DNA of 64,000 nucleotides from Halobellus sp. MBLA0158 (lineage in GTDB: Archaea; Halobacteriota; Halobacteria; Halobacteriales; Haloferacaceae). The notes under the pieces were generated by a model. It saw nothing but the letters and a program-made list of their open reading frames with translations, was not told the DNA's origin and ran no database searches. Shown one piece after another: positions 5,731 to 23,132 of this stretch; positions within the stretch are counted from its first letter, which is position 1, and each line of letters opens with the position of its first letter. A program made the translations under genes and the position numbers. The stretch spans positions 1,302,001 through 1,366,000 of the forward strand of contig NZ_JBGNYA010000001.1 of the NCBI RefSeq assembly GCF_041477585.1, in the 5' to 3' direction.

Positions 5731-7484
5731 GCGACGCGCCGCAGGGTCGCGAGGTGGCCCGTCGGGTCTTCGCCGCCGAGTTCGACGACGCGACGCTGTC
5801 TTATTCGGAAAGCGACGAGGAGCGCGCGCCGAACTACGTCGTCACCCCCACCGGGGCGCGGATCAATCGCCTGTTCGCCGTCGGCGCGCTGACCGAGGTC
5901 GAGTCGGTCAACGACGACATCGTCCGCGGGCGGATCGCGGACCCGACGGGCGTGTTCGTCAGCTACGCCGGCCAGTACCAGCCCGACGCGATGGGCTTTC
6001 TCGAACGCGCGGAGCCGCCGTGCTTCGTCTCGCTGACCGGCAAGGCCCGCACCTACCAGCCGGACGACTCCGATCGGATCTTCACGTCGGTCCGCCCCGA
6101 GAGCCTCAACGAGGTCGACGCCGACACCCGCGACCGCTGGGTCGTCGCCGCCGCCGAGGCGACGCTCGAACGCGTCGCGACGACCGCCGCGGCGCTCGAT
6201 CTCGACGTCTGCGGCGACGACCTCCGAGCCGCGCTCGAATCCCGCGGCGTCGACGCGGCGCTCGCTCAGGGCGTCGCGCTCGCGATCGATCACTACGAGC
6301 CGACCGAACACTATCTCGAAGCGGTCCGCACGATGGCGATCCAGGGGCTCGAACTCGTCGCCGGCGAGCGCGAGGCCGTCGACGGGCTCGCGGTCGATCC
6401 CGACGAGGCCGGCCCCGACGAACTCGGCCCGCTCCCCGACGTCGCCGCGGCCTCCGCCGCGCCCGCCGACGCGACAGCGACCGCCGGTACGGGAACGGAA
6501 GGAGCCGGAGCCGCCGACGAGGCCGCCGAAGCGACCGGATCGACTGCATCGACCGCATCGGAGCCGTCCTCCCAGTCCGCGGCGGACGAATCCGAGCCGA
6601 CGGTCGAGACCTCCGAGTCGCCGACGGCGGACGAATCCGAGGCACAGCCCGCGGCCGAGACCGCCGCCGCCGACGTGTCCGATCAGTCTGCACCCGCTGA
6701 AGTCGACTCCGAGGGCTCCGCGTCCGCGGACGCCGAATCGACGGCGACGGAGGACCCGTCGCCGAGCGACTCGGTCGACGGACCGGGCGATTTCGACGGA
6801 GCGGACGAAGGCGACGAACCGGACGCGCCCGCGGAATCGGCCGCCGACGAGACAACCGGATCCGACGAACTGGGCGACTTCGGCGTCGACGCCGGCGGGG
6901 CGGATCCGGACGATATCGAAACCGGAATCGACGAGGGCGAGATGTACGAACTCGACCCCGAGGAGCGCGCCGAGATCGAGGCCGAGTACGGCACCGAGTT
7001 CGCGACGGGCAACGAAGTCAGCGAGCCGGGCGAGGCCGACATCGACGTCCCGGACGTCGACGAACTGGAGGCCGAGGCCGGAGAGTCGGACGAGGCCGAC
7101 GCGACCCCGTCCGAGCCGGCGGCCCCCGAGCCGACTGCGGAGTCGTCGCCGGCCGAGGAGACCGCCGACGCAGACGTCGAATCGGCTGACGTCGCTGGCG
7201 AAGGCGCCGGCGACGGGACAGCAACGGAGGACGACCCCGAGCCGGCGGTCGACGACTCAGCCGACGACTTGGCTGCGGACGCAGCGGACGTCGACCTCGA
7301 AGACGCCGCGGTCGCCGTGATGGAGAACCTCGACGACGGCGACGGCGCCGACCGGGAGGCGGTGATCGCGGCCGTCGTCGAGGAGTACGGCGCCGACCCC
7401 GACGACGTCGAGGACGCGATCCAGGAGGCGCTGATGAGCGGCCAGTGCTACGAGCCCAACGAGGGCACGCTGAAGGCGATCTGA
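5727..7484 (+). CDS. rpap1: RPA-associated protein RPAP1 (COG3390)
   Basis: This partner of RPA1 has 585 residues. The N-terminal part (about 1-230) is an OB-like region, including VFVSYAGQYQPDAMGFLE and LTGKARTYQ. A very acidic Ala/Glu/Asp/Ser-rich linker runs from about 230 to 510. The C-terminal 65 residues form a compact helical segment, DLEDAAVAVMENLDD followed by DREAVIAAVVEEYG, which resembles the winged-helix tail of eukaryotic RPA32. The GTG start at 5727 overlaps the rpa1 stop by three bases. Co-purification of RPAP proteins with RPA has been reported in Haloferax. The linker is longer than would be needed for a simple tether and may act as a flexible acidic spacer. Confidence 0.88.
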   Translation: MSDAPQGREVARRVFAAEFDDATLSYSESDEERAPNYVVTPTGARINRLFAVGALTEVESVNDDIVRGRIADPTGVFVSYAGQYQPDAMGFLERAEPPCFVSLTGKARTYQPDDSDRIFTSVRPESLNEVDADTRDRWVVAAAEATLERVATTAAALDLDVCGDDLRAALESRGVDAALAQGVALAIDHYEPTEHYLEAVRTMAIQGLELVAGEREAVDGLAVDPDEAGPDELGPLPDVAAASAAPADATATAGTGTEGAGAADEAAEATGSTASTASEPSSQSAADESEPTVETSESPTADESEAQPAAETAAADVSDQSAPAEVDSEGSASADAESTATEDPSPSDSVDGPGDFDGADEGDEPDAPAESAADETTGSDELGDFGVDAGGADPDDIETGIDEGEMYELDPEERAEIEAEYGTEFATGNEVSEPGEADIDVPDVDELEAEAGESDEADATPSEPAAPEPTAESSPAEETADADVESADVAGEGAGDGTATEDDPEPAVDDSADDLAADAADVDLEDAAVAVMENLDDGDGADREAVIAAVVEEYGADPDDVEDAIQEALMSGQCYEPNEGTLKAI

Positions 7485-18612: not shown

Positions 18613-18918
18613 ATGATAGACCGACTGGAAAAGGAAGTGGATATGCTAGAACGCCACTTGCAGGTCCTGAGAATGGTCATCGAGAGCGAACCCATCGGCA
18701 TCGTGAAGATGTCGAACGAGACCGGCTACCCCCACCACAAGGTGCGCTATTCGCTGCGCGTCCTCGAAGAGGAGAACCTCATCGAGCCGTCGAGCCAGGG
18801 TGCCATCACGACTGAGCAGACCGCGGACTTCGTGGACGAACTCGACGAGAAACTGGACCACATCGTCGAGAAGCTCGACGAGATGAAGATCGAAGAGACC
18901 GTCGAAGTCGAGAACTGA
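18613..18918 (+). CDS. Winged-helix transcription regulator with coiled-coil ends
   Basis: The protein has 101 residues. An N-terminal helix (1-22, MIDRLEKEVDMLERHLQ) and a C-terminal helix (about 70-95) are heptad-like and probably dimerise. Between them lies a winged helix, where GIVKMSNETGYPHHKVRYSL is the recognition unit. It resembles a widespread archaeal family of small predicted regulators. The target genes are unknown. The start at 18613 agrees with a TATA-like box about 30 bases upstream; an ATG at 18608 hits a stop within three codons. It converges with the large coiled-coil protein gene. Confidence 0.85.
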   Translation: MIDRLEKEVDMLERHLQVLRMVIESEPIGIVKMSNETGYPHHKVRYSLRVLEEENLIEPSSQGAITTEQTADFVDELDEKLDHIVEKLDEMKIEETVEVEN

Positions 18919-18958: not shown

Positions 18959-21388
18959 CTACAGATCCGGAACGTTCAGGTGGAACTCCCCGTTCCGCGC
19001 TTCCACCAGACAGAGGTGATAGCCGCGTTTTCGCGAGAGCTTGACGTACGAGAGCTTGTTCGACCGCGAGAGCAGTCCCCCGCCGGTCGCTTCGGCGACC
19101 GTCTCCAGCGCGCCGGGCTCGTAGAAGGACTCGGTGACGTAGAACCCCGCTGCCAGCGACTCGTCGCTCTCGGCGAGGGTTCCCGTGTTCTCCACGAGCG
19201 AGCCCACCATCGCCTCGGTCGTCGCGTTCCGCGAGGCGTTGATGTCGGCCACGAACAGCGGATCGCCCATCTTGTCCCGGAAGATGACGTCGAAGGCGCG
19301 CTCTTCGGCGCCGTCCTCGCCCGCGATGTCGACGGTCCCGGAGAGTTCGATCCGGTCGATGTCCGGAATCGCGTCGAAGACGCCCCCGAGCTTCGATCGG
19401 TTCCCGGTCTCGCCGATCTCATAGAGGAGGTCGGAGACGACCCACTCGGCGAACGAGTACTCCGTGCTGTCGTGGAGGAACTCCTCGTAGGGACGGTCCG
19501 CGACGATCAGGTCGTCCGTCTCGAAGGTGGTGTGGTGTTCGAGGCGGAGGTTCGCGCTCACGTCCTCGCGGGAGGCCTTGCCGTCGTGCGCGTGTTCGAG
19601 CGTCGCCTCGCCCTTCCTGTCGTACCGGACGAAGAGGTTCGTGCCCGCGAGCGCCCGGTCGGGGGCCATCGTCTCCGTCTCGGCGGCGTCCGCACCCCCG
19701 CCCCCGCTCGCGTTCGCCTCCTGGGATTCGAGCTCGGCTTCGAGGCGCTCGACCTCCGACTCCAGCCGCTCGCGCTCGGCTTCGAGTTCGTCGATCCGCT
19801 CGCGCTGCTTCTCGCGGGCCGCCTCCAGCTCCTCGACGCGCTCGCGGTACTCGTCGCGCTCCTCGGCGAGGTCGTCGCGCTCGGACTCCAGCGATTCGAG
19901 CCGCTCGCGCGCCCGGGAGAGCCGCTTCCGGAGGCGGTCCGGGTCCTGGCCGTCGATCTCGTTCCGGTCCTGGCCGCGCCGGCGTTCGCGTCTGGCCGCC
20001 GCTCGGTCGCGAGCCTCGCGGGCGCGTCGTTGTCGCGTCGAGGTCCGTTCTGGCGTCTGTGATTGCGATTTGGACTGGGCGTCGCCCTCTCGGACGCTCG
20101 CCTCGCCGTTCGATCGCCCGGGATCGAGGGAGGGAATCGTGCGCGCCTCGCGCCAGCGCTCCTCGTCGGAGAAGACGCCGTCGCGCTCTGAATCACTCGC
20201 CGGTGACGGATCGGCCGCCTGTGCCTCCGCTCCGGCGGCGGTCTCGGCCGTTCCGCCGCCCGGTCGGTCGGAGCCGTCGACGGATCGGGGGTCGGATTCT
20301 GTTGGCGCCGCCCGCTGGTCGTCCACGGCTGTCGCCTCGGCGGCGTTCGTTTCGGTAGTCGTGTCCGTCGGCGTCGACGACGGCTCGCGAGCGTCGGCCG
20401 CGACGTCCGCTTCGGCGTCCGAATTGGCGTCCGCATCGGCGACGTCGGCCGTCGCGTCGGCCTCTGCGGCCGTCGTGGGAGTGTCGGAATCAGCCGGCTC
20501 GGCGCTCGCGGCGGCGTCTGCGGGATCGTTGACGGCCGCTGTGTCGGTCCCGCGGTTCGCGGCCGCCGGCGCGTTCGGTGGTTCGTCCGCGTCGTCGCCG
20601 ACCGATTCGGCCGTCCCGCTACCGTCCTCGCCTGCGACCGCTCCGTCGTCCGGTTTCGGGTCGGCGTCGGTGGCGTCGACAGCCGATCCGTCGTCTTCGC
20701 GGGCCTCGTCGCCGTCGTCGATCGCCGCGTCGCGATCGGCCATCGGCTCCGTCTCGGCGGCGTCTTCGTCGGCGTCTCCGTCCGCGGCGTCTTCGTCGCT
20801 CGTGTCCGATTCAGCCGTCTCGTCGCCGGCCGCATCGCCGCCGTCCGGGAGTTCGGGGATGTCGACCAGCTCGATGTCGACGTCTTTGACCTCGTAGATC
20901 CCGACCTCGTCTGCGGCCTTCTCGAAGGCCTCATCGCCCGTGACGAGCCGCTGGGAGCTGCCGACGAAGGCGGCGCTCATCGACTTCCCGCCGTGGTAGA
21001 CGACGTAGTAGTCCCCCGAGAGCACGTTCTCGGAGAGCTCGATGTAGCCGGTGAAGCCGCCGCTTTCGAGCGTCTTGTCGGCGTCCGAAAGCGGCGTCTC
21101 GTTCGTGTAGTACTTCGCGCGCGTCTCGCCGCCGCGTTCCTGCATCGCGAAGAGGAGCGGCAGGCTCGGGTCGGCCGCGCGGTACGCGGTGAGTGATGCG
21201 TCCTCGAAGTCCCCGATTTCCCCCTTGAAAACCCCGACGACGCGGCCGTTCAGGAAGAACGCCCACGTCGTCCCGGCGGAGACGGCTCCGCTGAACTCCG
21301 AATCCGAAAGCTGGTGGAGCCCCTCGTATCCGTCCGGCGCGGCGACCGTCTCCCACTCGGTCACCACGTCGATAGTGCGACTGTTCAT
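18959..21388 (-). CDS. Large acidic coiled-coil protein (DUF7527-like)
   Basis: The protein has 809 residues with a clear modular layout. Residues 1-180 form a globular domain with the segment GFTGYIELSENVLSGDYYVVYHGG, reminiscent of small sensor domains such as DUF2226. About 180-430 is an acidic, Ala/Asp/Thr-rich disordered region. About 430-475 is basic and Arg-rich. About 480-570 is a strongly predicted coiled coil (Glu, Arg, Leu heptads). Residues 590-809 are a second globular domain with FDVIFRDKMGDPLFVADINAS, which resembles the core of PD-(D/E)XK folds but lacks the Lys. The name DUF7527 is from memory. The ATG at 21388 was preferred over one five codons upstream because the conserved-looking start begins there. 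It is divergent from the K+ channel gene. Confidence 0.8.
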   Translation of the reverse strand: MNSRTIDVVTEWETVAAPDGYEGLHQLSDSEFSGAVSAGTTWAFFLNGRVVGVFKGEIGDFEDASLTAYRAADPSLPLLFAMQERGGETRAKYYTNETPLSDADKTLESGGFTGYIELSENVLSGDYYVVYHGGKSMSAAFVGSSQRLVTGDEAFEKAADEVGIYEVKDVDIELVDIPELPDGGDAAGDETAESDTSDEDAADGDADEDAAETEPMADRDAAIDDGDEAREDDGSAVDATDADPKPDDGAVAGEDGSGTAESVGDDADEPPNAPAAANRGTDTAAVNDPADAAASAEPADSDTPTTAAEADATADVADADANSDAEADVAADAREPSSTPTDTTTETNAAEATAVDDQRAAPTESDPRSVDGSDRPGGGTAETAAGAEAQAADPSPASDSERDGVFSDEERWREARTIPSLDPGRSNGEASVREGDAQSKSQSQTPERTSTRQRRAREARDRAAARRERRRGQDRNEIDGQDPDRLRKRLSRARERLESLESERDDLAEERDEYRERVEELEAAREKQRERIDELEAERERLESEVERLEAELESQEANASGGGGADAAETETMAPDRALAGTNLFVRYDRKGEATLEHAHDGKASREDVSANLRLEHHTTFETDDLIVADRPYEEFLHDSTEYSFAEWVVSDLLYEIGETGNRSKLGGVFDAIPDIDRIELSGTVDIAGEDGAEERAFDVIFRDKMGDPLFVADINASRNATTEAMVGSLVENTGTLAESDESLAAGFYVTESFYEPGALETVAEATGGGLLSRSNKLSYVKLSRKRGYHLCLVEARNGEFHLNVPDL

Positions 21389-21482
21389 CCGTGTGTGTAT
21401 CACGGAATCCGGATCAAATACTTTCCGGAGCGTCAGACGCCGGCTCCGGCGAACTTTTCCCGCCGCGCACCGAGCGACCGGT

Positions 21483-23132
21483 ATGGCAGACGGCTCGGCC
21501 TGGTCTTCGACCGAGGCCCGGCGGCGGCTCGGGATCTATCTCGCGGTCGCGCTCGGCGCGGTCGGTTTCTACACTATCCTCTACCGCTGGACCCTCGCGA
21601 CCTTCGAGGGGATCTCCGTCGGGTGGATCGAGGCGATGCACGTCGTCGTCGAGACGTTCACGACCACCGGCTACGGCGAGGACGCCGGGCTCTGGAACGC
21701 GCCGCCGACGTTCCTGCTCTCGATGGCGATGCAGTTCACCGGCGTCGCGCTCATCTTCACGACGCTGCCGCTCTTCGTCGTGCCCCTGGTCGAGCGCGCG
21801 CTCGAACGCGACCCGCCCACGGAGTCGTCGCTCACCGACCACGTGATCGTCACGCCGCTGACCGCCCACGGCGAGATCCTCATCAACGAACTCCGCTCGA
21901 AGGACATCCCGCACCTGGTGATCGAACCCGACCGCGAGCGGGCCAGGGAGCTCCGCAACGACTACGAGATCGTCCACGGCGACCCCGAGTCGGTCGCGGA
22001 CCTGCGCGCCGCCAACGCCGACGAGGCTGTCGCGCTCGTCGCCGACAGCGACGACCGGACGAACGCCAGCGTGATCCTGACCGCAGAGCAGTTAGACGCC
22101 GACGTCCGGCTCGTGAGCCTCGTCGAAGAGCCCGAAGTGGCGGACTACCACCGCTACGCCGGCGCCGACGACGTCGTCTCGCCGCGGCAGCTCCTCGGCG
22201 AGAGCCTCGCGCGGAAGGCCGCCTCGCCGATCAACCCCGAGAGCGAGGAGGCCGTGCTGATCGGCGACGACTTCGAGGTCGCGGAGGTGCTGATCCACCC
22301 CGACAGCGAACTCGAAGGCCGGACGATCGCCGACGGCGAGATCGGCCGGCGGACCGGCGCGGACATCATCGGCATCTGGTCGCGCGGGGAGTTCGTCACG
22401 CCGCCGTCGCCCGCGACCGTGCTCGACGAGCGCACGACGCTTCTCGTCACCGGCCACGAGGATCAGGTGGCGCGGCTCCGCGAACTCGCCCGCTCGGAGG
22501 CGCGCCGGCACCGCCGCGGCCGGGTCGTCGTCGCGGGCTACGGCGAGGTCGGATCGACCGCCGCCGACGCGCTCGCCGACGCCGGCGTCCCCCACGTCGT
22601 CCTCGACTCGGAGGAGAAGCCGGGCGTCGACATCGTCGGCGACGTCACCGATTACGAGGCCTTAGAGCGCGCGGGCGTCGCGGACGCCGAGAGCGTCCTG
22701 ATCGCGCTCGACGACGACACCACCGCCATCTTCGCGACGCTCGTCGTCGAGCGCCTCGCGCCGGGCGCGGAGATCATCGTCCGGGCGAACGACGCCGCGA
22801 GCGTCAAGAAGATCTACCGCGCGGGCGCCGAGTACGTCCTGGCGCTCTCGACGGTCAGCGGGCGGATGCTGGCGTCGAACCTCACCGACGAGGAGGTGAT
22901 CGCACCGCAGTCCCAGATCGAGATCGTCCGCGTCGACGCGCCGCGGCTTGTCGGGACGTCGCTCGCGGAGGCGGACGTGCGGGCGCGGACCGGCTCGACC
23001 GTCCTCGCCGTCGAGCGCGACGACGAACTCCGCACGGACGTCGGCCCCGACTTCCGGATCCGATCGGGGGACACGCTCGTCGTCGCCGGCACCGACGAGG
23101 CCGTCAACGCGTTCAACGAGCGGTACGGTTAG
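21483..23132 (+). CDS. Two-helix potassium channel with duplicated RCK (TrkA) domains
   Basis: This 549-residue channel has two membrane helices (about 16-36 and 72-95) flanking a pore helix. The selectivity filter TTGYGE is at 61-66. Two regulator-of-K-conductance units follow in the cytoplasm, each a TrkA-N Rossmann domain and a TrkA-C domain: about 110-330 and 345-549. The second contains VVVAGYGEVGSTAADAL, a typical nucleotide-binding loop, while the first has a degenerate one (VIVTPLTAHGEIL). Cation or nucleotide ligands would gate the pore. Such channels suit salt-in osmoadaptation, where cytoplasmic K+ is molar. Confidence 0.93.
   Translation: MADGSAWSSTEARRRLGIYLAVALGAVGFYTILYRWTLATFEGISVGWIEAMHVVVETFTTTGYGEDAGLWNAPPTFLLSMAMQFTGVALIFTTLPLFVVPLVERALERDPPTESSLTDHVIVTPLTAHGEILINELRSKDIPHLVIEPDRERARELRNDYEIVHGDPESVADLRAANADEAVALVADSDDRTNASVILTAEQLDADVRLVSLVEEPEVADYHRYAGADDVVSPRQLLGESLARKAASPINPESEEAVLIGDDFEVAEVLIHPDSELEGRTIADGEIGRRTGADIIGIWSRGEFVTPPSPATVLDERTTLLVTGHEDQVARLRELARSEARRHRRGRVVVAGYGEVGSTAADALADAGVPHVVLDSEEKPGVDIVGDVTDYEALERAGVADAESVLIALDDDTTAIFATLVVERLAPGAEIIVRANDAASVKKIYRAGAEYVLALSTVSGRMLASNLTDEEVIAPQSQIEIVRVDAPRLVGTSLAEADVRARTGSTVLAVERDDELRTDVGPDFRIRSGDTLVVAGTDEAVNAFNERYG

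Follow-up and report, generated by a model that had tools for sequence, protein, structure and literature searches.

The DUF7527 protein encoded in the window (the whole stretch of Halobellus DNA analyzed here, 64,000 nt) was read, with moderate confidence, as a cytosolic coiled-coil scaffold with a dead PD-(D/E)XK domain used for binding, nucleic acid being the likelier ligand, and the neighbouring K+ channel was read as unrelated to it. The coiled coil would join the chains into an elongated dimer or higher oligomer, and the C-terminal PD-(D/E)XK-like domain, its cutting motif lost, would have been retained for binding. The N-terminal domain may form the other binding end, the acidic linker would space the two globular domains, and a conserved linker peptide would dock on a partner or on the DUF7527 protein itself. 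The gene would be driven by a promoter element of its own.

The 809-residue open reading frame and the K+ channel gene diverging from it across a gap of 94 nt between the two starts, both described by an earlier sequence-only reading, were real in the window (Table 1). An in-frame GTG 5' of the DUF7527 ATG offered an alternative start that would add 5 aa. The label K+ channel was considered fair because the divergent protein contains TrkA_N and TrkA_C regions, two of each, together with TTTGYG, a motif that we take to be the K+ filter. Among the best 80 of 260 relatives, the closest named ones came from six Halobellus genomes, with 77-86% identity in the C-terminal domain.

Table 1. Positions of the DUF7527 gene, its parts and its flanking genes in the window.
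Feature	Positions	Strand	Remarks
DUF7527 protein gene	18959..21388	(-)	809 aa; ATG at 21388
N-terminal alpha/beta domain, residues 1-178	20855..21388	(-)	Conservation, predicted model
Acidic, low-complexity linker, residues 179-405	20174..20854	(-)	
Conserved linker peptide F-S-D-E-E-R-W-R-E-A-R-T-I-P-S-L-D-P, residues 406-423	20120..20173	(-)	
Basic patch, residues 448-472, net +9	19973..20047	(-)	Varies within the family
Coiled coil, about residues 484-560	19709..19939	(-)	Heptad pattern; coiled-coil type family matches
DUF7527 domain, residues 574-809, PD-(D/E)XK-like fold	18962..19669	(-)	Pfam and predicted model
Asp700 codon (domain residue 127), first catalytic Asp position	19289..19291	(-)	
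Asn717 codon (domain residue 144), likeliest catalytic Lys position	19238..19240	(-)	Strand pattern, register by eye
BRE/TATA-like element CGGAAAGTATTTG	21415..21427	(-)	39 to 27 nt 5' of the DUF7527 ATG
Convergent gene of a 101-aa winged-helix-like protein	18613..18918	(+)	Conserved 3' neighbour, separate from the DUF7527 protein
Divergent K+ channel, two TrkA_N and two TrkA_C regions, TTTGYG motif	21483..23132	(+)	ATG at 21483

Conservation was followed in two sets of loci. The diverse set comprised 74 genus-spread stretches (L032-L105), 73 of which carried the gene and one (L103) a C-terminal remnant only. The named set consisted of the best 80 of 260 relatives (L106-L185), all haloarchaeal by name, with the gene complete and in frame in 73. 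Together with the window these gave a main set of 147 proteins, 144 of them distinct, in which three pairs of loci came from duplicate genomes (L033/L123, L036/L115 and L070/L145). Seven named loci without a complete in-frame N-terminal domain were kept outside this set (L126, L127, L139, L151, L161, L177 and L180). In L139, from Halorubrum kocurii, the N-terminal and C-terminal domains were not in one open frame, which may reflect a frameshift or an assembly error. Residue counts in the C-terminal domain were made on 151 distinct sequences out of 154 taken.

Residues 574-809 formed a full-length member of Pfam DUF7527 (PF24371), aligned over model positions 1-237 (E 1e-107, with a score of 359.5 bits where the cut-off is 27). 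The Pfam model describes the C-terminal domain only and leaves the N-terminal domain, the linker peptide and the coiled coil outside. An AlphaFold2 model of this 236-residue domain (61 sequences) reached a pLDDT of 86.8 and a pTM of 0.88, and its elements (H69-87, H95-103, E106-117, E120-131, E137-144, H152-168, E174-179, H185-195) included the alpha-beta-beta-beta-alpha-beta core of PD-(D/E)XK proteins, with moderate structural scores. Ten of the first 12 Foldseek rows were NucS/EndoMS, AF1548, EcoO109I, Can2 and MspJI, which we take, like the further VIA matches, to be PD-(D/E)XK proteins. The best row was NucS 2vld (E 2.2e-3), followed by EndoMS, AF1548 (1y88) and EcoO109I and later by Can2 and MspJI; the remaining two rows, 8jkz_B and 8k87_A, were chains of prokaryotic Argonaute systems. 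No Foldseek match of the domain reached an E of 0.001 or better, and the best rows had TM-scores of 0.20-0.30 by query length.

Re-alignment with VIA placed 1y88 first (Z 8.7 over 113 aa at 4.0 A), the sole match with a Z of at least 8, with EndoMS (7.4), Can2 (6.9), Card1 (6.1), SfsA (6.0), NucC (5.6) and YaeQ (5.3) among the further rows and RNA polymerase chain E (RPB5) recurring at Z 5.1-5.8. By the tool's own statement, models without clear relatives commonly have a best Z of 7-8, so that the fold is argued from the consistency of the rows and from the topology. In a profile comparison with 13 NucS proteins, 81 columns aligned and D127 fell on the NucS Asp, with an E of 0.0028 for the single comparison and a probability of 11%. 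The sequence of the domain gave nothing below E 0.24 against solved structures, and no match of the 809-aa protein to the NucS/EndoMS model (PF01939) was listed with an E limit of 10. A PD-(D/E)XK-like fold, on which the sequence-only reading had staked its view of the C-terminus, was supported at moderate scores by the predicted model and by matches that were mostly PD-(D/E)XK proteins.

At the other end of the protein, the N-terminal domain was present in all 73 DUF7527-bearing diverse loci, and its conservation is a feature new to this analysis. The domain had been described as small, beta-rich and sensor-like. Residues 1-185 were predicted as mixed alpha/beta rather than purely beta (pLDDT 92.8), and a sensor function is at most putative, all fold matches being unconvincing. 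Foldseek gave at best E 0.096 in PDB and 0.024 in BFVD, VIA matches to PPC/acetolactate-decarboxylase-like folds did not exceed a Z of 6.4, within the stated background, and mostly covered some 80 residues, and the sequence had no match among solved structures. The Pfam scan of the window protein assigned no family to this domain, and a scan of 28 N-terminal domains gave one composition-type match in one member (E 0.0007), all others having an E of at least 0.02. PATAN/DUF4388 (PF14332), which we had presumed to be a candidate family, was not among the six families matched by these 28 domains at E up to 10, and with an E limit of 0.1 its model had no match in 13 genomes. Comparison of the two halves with hhalign gave no match that would indicate an internal repeat. 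The domain is placed in no family, and the lack of a match is no proof of a new fold.

The region between the two globular domains was largely as it had been described. The acidic low-complexity linker was real, with medians of 27% D+E against 5% K+R in 141 proteins, and a heptad contrast more than 3 SD above shuffled sequences bore out the long coiled coil in 140 of 147 proteins. The basic patch was present in the window protein, 25 residues carrying net +9, but no more than 70 of 141 relatives reached net +5 over that length there. Hydropathy indicated no transmembrane segment in the window protein (maximum 19-residue value 1.07), and the 19-residue value reached 1.6 in just one of the 147 proteins; a membrane protein was rejected.

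A conserved peptide at residues 406-423 is a second new feature, absent from the sequence-only reading. Outside this peptide the linker was highly variable in length and sequence, and the 25 commonest linker hexamers listed all came from the peptide stretch. Its core, [IV]-P-[SA]-[LIV]-[DN]-P, was found 89-212 residues N-terminal of the C-terminal domain in 140 of the 147 proteins, or 137 when only the 144 distinct ones are counted, against three of 7200 shuffled linkers; L081, with a Thr variant, stands outside the 140. At positions outside the search pattern, a W was found six residues ahead of the core in 122 of the 140, followed by R in 115, and an E nine residues ahead in 123. The core with a preceding W-[RQ] occurred in 118 of 147 proteins and the full consensus, F-S-x-E-x-x-W-R-E-x-[RK]-[ST]-I-P-[SA]-[LI]-D-P, exactly in 42. 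A docking tag common to other proteins was considered and rejected: a DNA pattern for the core had three matches in its own genome, one being the DUF7527 gene itself and neither of the two others lying in frame in an open reading frame that, by eye, made a plausible gene. The pattern covered only some of the codons and variants that could occur, and further copies are possible. K19 of the C-terminal domain (codon 19613-19615 in the window) was changed in five of six peptide-less proteins against about 2% of peptide-bearing ones, a comparison in which the six are divergent overall and many columns were tested. K19 is a possible docking site for the linker peptide, or its change may reflect general divergence.

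Nucleic acid was considered the likelier ligand because K/R positions with a conservation of at least 95% occur in the C-terminal but not in the N-terminal domain; there are eight, three of them by an unordered loop. These three, R202 (K/R in 96.5%), R213 and K214, lie in or beside residues 199-212, where the pLDDT fell below 50, yet S207 and V209 were each kept in 149 of 151 sequences. Going by the model, the loop might conceivably become ordered on an anionic ligand. The argument for nucleic acid is weak, because the net charge of the domain is negative, at a median of -8.9 per 100 residues, and 11 conserved acidic positions stand against the eight basic ones.

The same acidity agrees with another reading, possible though doubtful, in which the dead domain serves protein-protein contacts, as its counterpart in RPB5 does, and the entire protein is a hub without involvement of nucleic acid. 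The recurrence of RPB5 among the VIA rows and the resemblance of the linker peptide to a protein-docking element also favour it, but an anionic ligand would fit the eight basic positions and the loop, which is conserved yet unordered. Precedents exist for both ligands: PMC1185551 describes RPB5 as a known inactive PD-(D/E)XK domain working in protein contacts and RecC as a dead version of the fold that guides ssDNA. The N-terminal domain of RPB5 and the C-terminal domain of RecC are, according to that source, catalytically dead and kept for binding, as is proposed for DUF7527, but both are parts of stable enzyme complexes, whereas the DUF7527 domain ends a long haloarchaeal coiled-coil protein.

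A more specific form of the scaffold reading, which we regard as unlikely, would make the protein a flexible nucleic-acid tether of haloarchaea: the NucS-like dead domain would grip DNA or RNA, the coiled coil would dimerise and the linker peptide would recruit or release a partner, giving an organiser of chromosome or transcripts without counterpart elsewhere.

The dead state of the domain was judged from its catalytic positions. The first catalytic Asp, D127 (Asp700), was kept in 150 of the 151 distinct sequences. At position 142, the place of the second acid in a register set by eye, residues were mixed (D 68, N 55, T 10, E 9, A 5, M 3, V 1), D or E making up 77 of 151. Position 144, the place of the Lys by strand pattern, was N in 132, T in 7, D in 7, H in 2, V in 2 and S in 1, and K in none of the 151; the claim that Asn replaces the catalytic Lys holds in this likeliest register. 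The alignment of the NucS profile put the NucS Glu on A141 and Lys on S146, and an ungapped reading pointed to 141 and 143; across the 151 sequences no acid was found at 141 and no Lys at 143 or 146. On this sequence evidence the canonical D...(D/E)-x-K cutting motif is gone in every register across the family. The core fold resembles that of the C-terminal nuclease domain of NucS/EndoMS (PF01939), and a D-x4-D-x2-G hairpin was common, by eye, to DUF7527 and several of the 13 NucS proteins, but the strand reading E-[LV]-K in NucS reads A-[DN]-L-N in DUF7527. Together, the fold and the family-wide absence of the motif support the scaffold-like architecture with a dead-nuclease module that had been suggested for this protein, the module presumably serving for binding.

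An alternative in which the protein still cuts, by means of a rearranged active site, appears improbable. D127, together with the near-invariant E84, H218, E223, R106 and R147, would suit such a site, and PMC1185551 states that catalytic residues, the acid and the Lys, can migrate within the PD-(D/E)XK superfamily. The mixed second acid position, a position 144 that is never Lys, and NucS Glu and Lys equivalents that hold neither acid nor Lys argue against it.

In the diverse set 71 of 73 loci, and in the named set 78 of 80, had the convergent winged-helix gene at most 600 nt away, with 78-97% identity. Its protein had in Pfam a best match to CggR_N, below the cut-off. An obligate partnership with DUF7527 was rejected: each of the 14 genomes searched had a best match 74-100% identical to the winged-helix protein, and 12 of the 14 had no complete DUF7527 gene. 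The purA gene turned up in 71 of 73 diverse loci, two of which (L041 and L073) had it displaced or inverted.

UPF0058 (PF01893; solved relative 2gf4, Vng1086c), the co-directional 5' gene in many other lineages, is an improbable working partner. In 39 of 73 diverse loci (L075, for example) it shared the strand of DUF7527 and ended at most 400 nt 5' of it, and it was found at most 1600 nt 5' in 41 of 73 diverse and nine of 80 named loci. Against a partnership, it lay directly 5' of DUF7527 in none of 19 loci of the window's own family (and in one of 13 in family f3), and the two copies in the genome of the window are both elsewhere, none adjoining DUF7527. It also stayed, together with the winged-helix gene, in L199, L200 and L201, where no DUF7527 sequence was found, and in L206, where DUF7527 is a remnant, and the DUF7527 gene has its own promoter element. 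The L206 remnant, 34 C-terminal residues at 6721-6822 between the winged-helix gene and UPF0058, is apparently a gene in decay. A literature search by the name UPF0058 found no paper.

The promoter element CGGAAAGTATTTG, a Halobellus-derived consensus, lies 39 nt 5' of the ATG in the window and is presumably a BRE/TATA element, the mRNA being leaderless, as we assume from haloarchaeal promoters generally. With at most three mismatches it was found at -42 to -35, about 38 nt 5' of the start, in 135 of 147 genes (132 of 144 distinct ones, 63 of 73 in the diverse set), against 0, 0, 0 and 1 matches in four control bands.

The sequence-only reading had linked the protein to osmotic control through its shared gap with the K+ channel and had expected this divergence to be conserved, neither of which held up. 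The channel was the immediate divergent neighbour (at most 300 nt) in only three of 147 loci, namely the window and two named Halobellus loci (L107 and L108, with gaps of 206-216 nt). In five others (L032, L106, L109, L110 and L111) an M20 peptidase gene took its place directly 5' of DUF7527, with an antiporter gene beyond in four of the five. Nine of the 73 diverse loci and 16 of the 80 named ones had a channel with at least 40% identity over 300 aa anywhere in the fetched stretch, mostly 2-5 kb from DUF7527 and on either strand; in L050 it lay at 488 nt, with UPF0058, ending 87 nt from the DUF7527 gene, in between. The promoter element was invariant in eight same-genus 5' regions, of which only three adjoin a channel and five do not. 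An osmotic-control unit of DUF7527 and the channel, for which the 94-nt gap, the two further Halobellus pairings and the channels within the stretches could be cited, is refuted as a conserved unit by the rare pairing, the peptidase replacement and the unchanged promoter, and we hold it to be very improbable; the channel looks like a bystander.

DUF7527 was restricted to haloarchaea in the genomes sampled. One match each was found in 231 of 242 genomes of the class Halobacteria, 230 of them over the cut-off (about 95%). The 11 genomes lacking it belonged to six families, and a twelfth genome (G215, that of L206) held the remnant; these absences count against a constant requirement for the protein. 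In a draw across the phylum the domain was found in 22 of 148 genomes; the window's order supplied 24 rows, two of them without a match, and the remaining 124 genomes had none. Among 14 control genomes only Haloferax volcanii carried it. Coverage of other phyla came from these controls and from the scan for relatives, of which the best 80 are described above. A profile of the N-terminal domain had one match each in 20 of 130 genomes, all 20 within the window's order. In the paper collection searched, a full-text query by the family name DUF7527 found no paper.

Two further roles were set aside. A defence role was considered unlikely because of the near-universal single copy; the PADLOC matches listed (25 of 27) all began at residue 436 or later, in the linker and coiled-coil part, at E 0.0024 or worse, and a search of PHROGs gave nothing below E 0.23. 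A link to the archaellum was not supported either: among the negative genomes listed (20 of 50), the ArlDE family was missing from some that carry DUF7527 (G017, G056 and G141, for example), and it was present in some without DUF7527 (G021, G128, G194 and G217).

A single copy in about 95% of the sampled haloarchaea, with none in the 124 other genomes, makes the DUF7527 protein a good candidate for a clade-defining function. Specific residues to mutate are given by the predicted fold and its dead motif, by the basic positions conserved in the C-terminal domain and by the linker peptide, and Haloferax volcanii is a tractable host with a member of the family.
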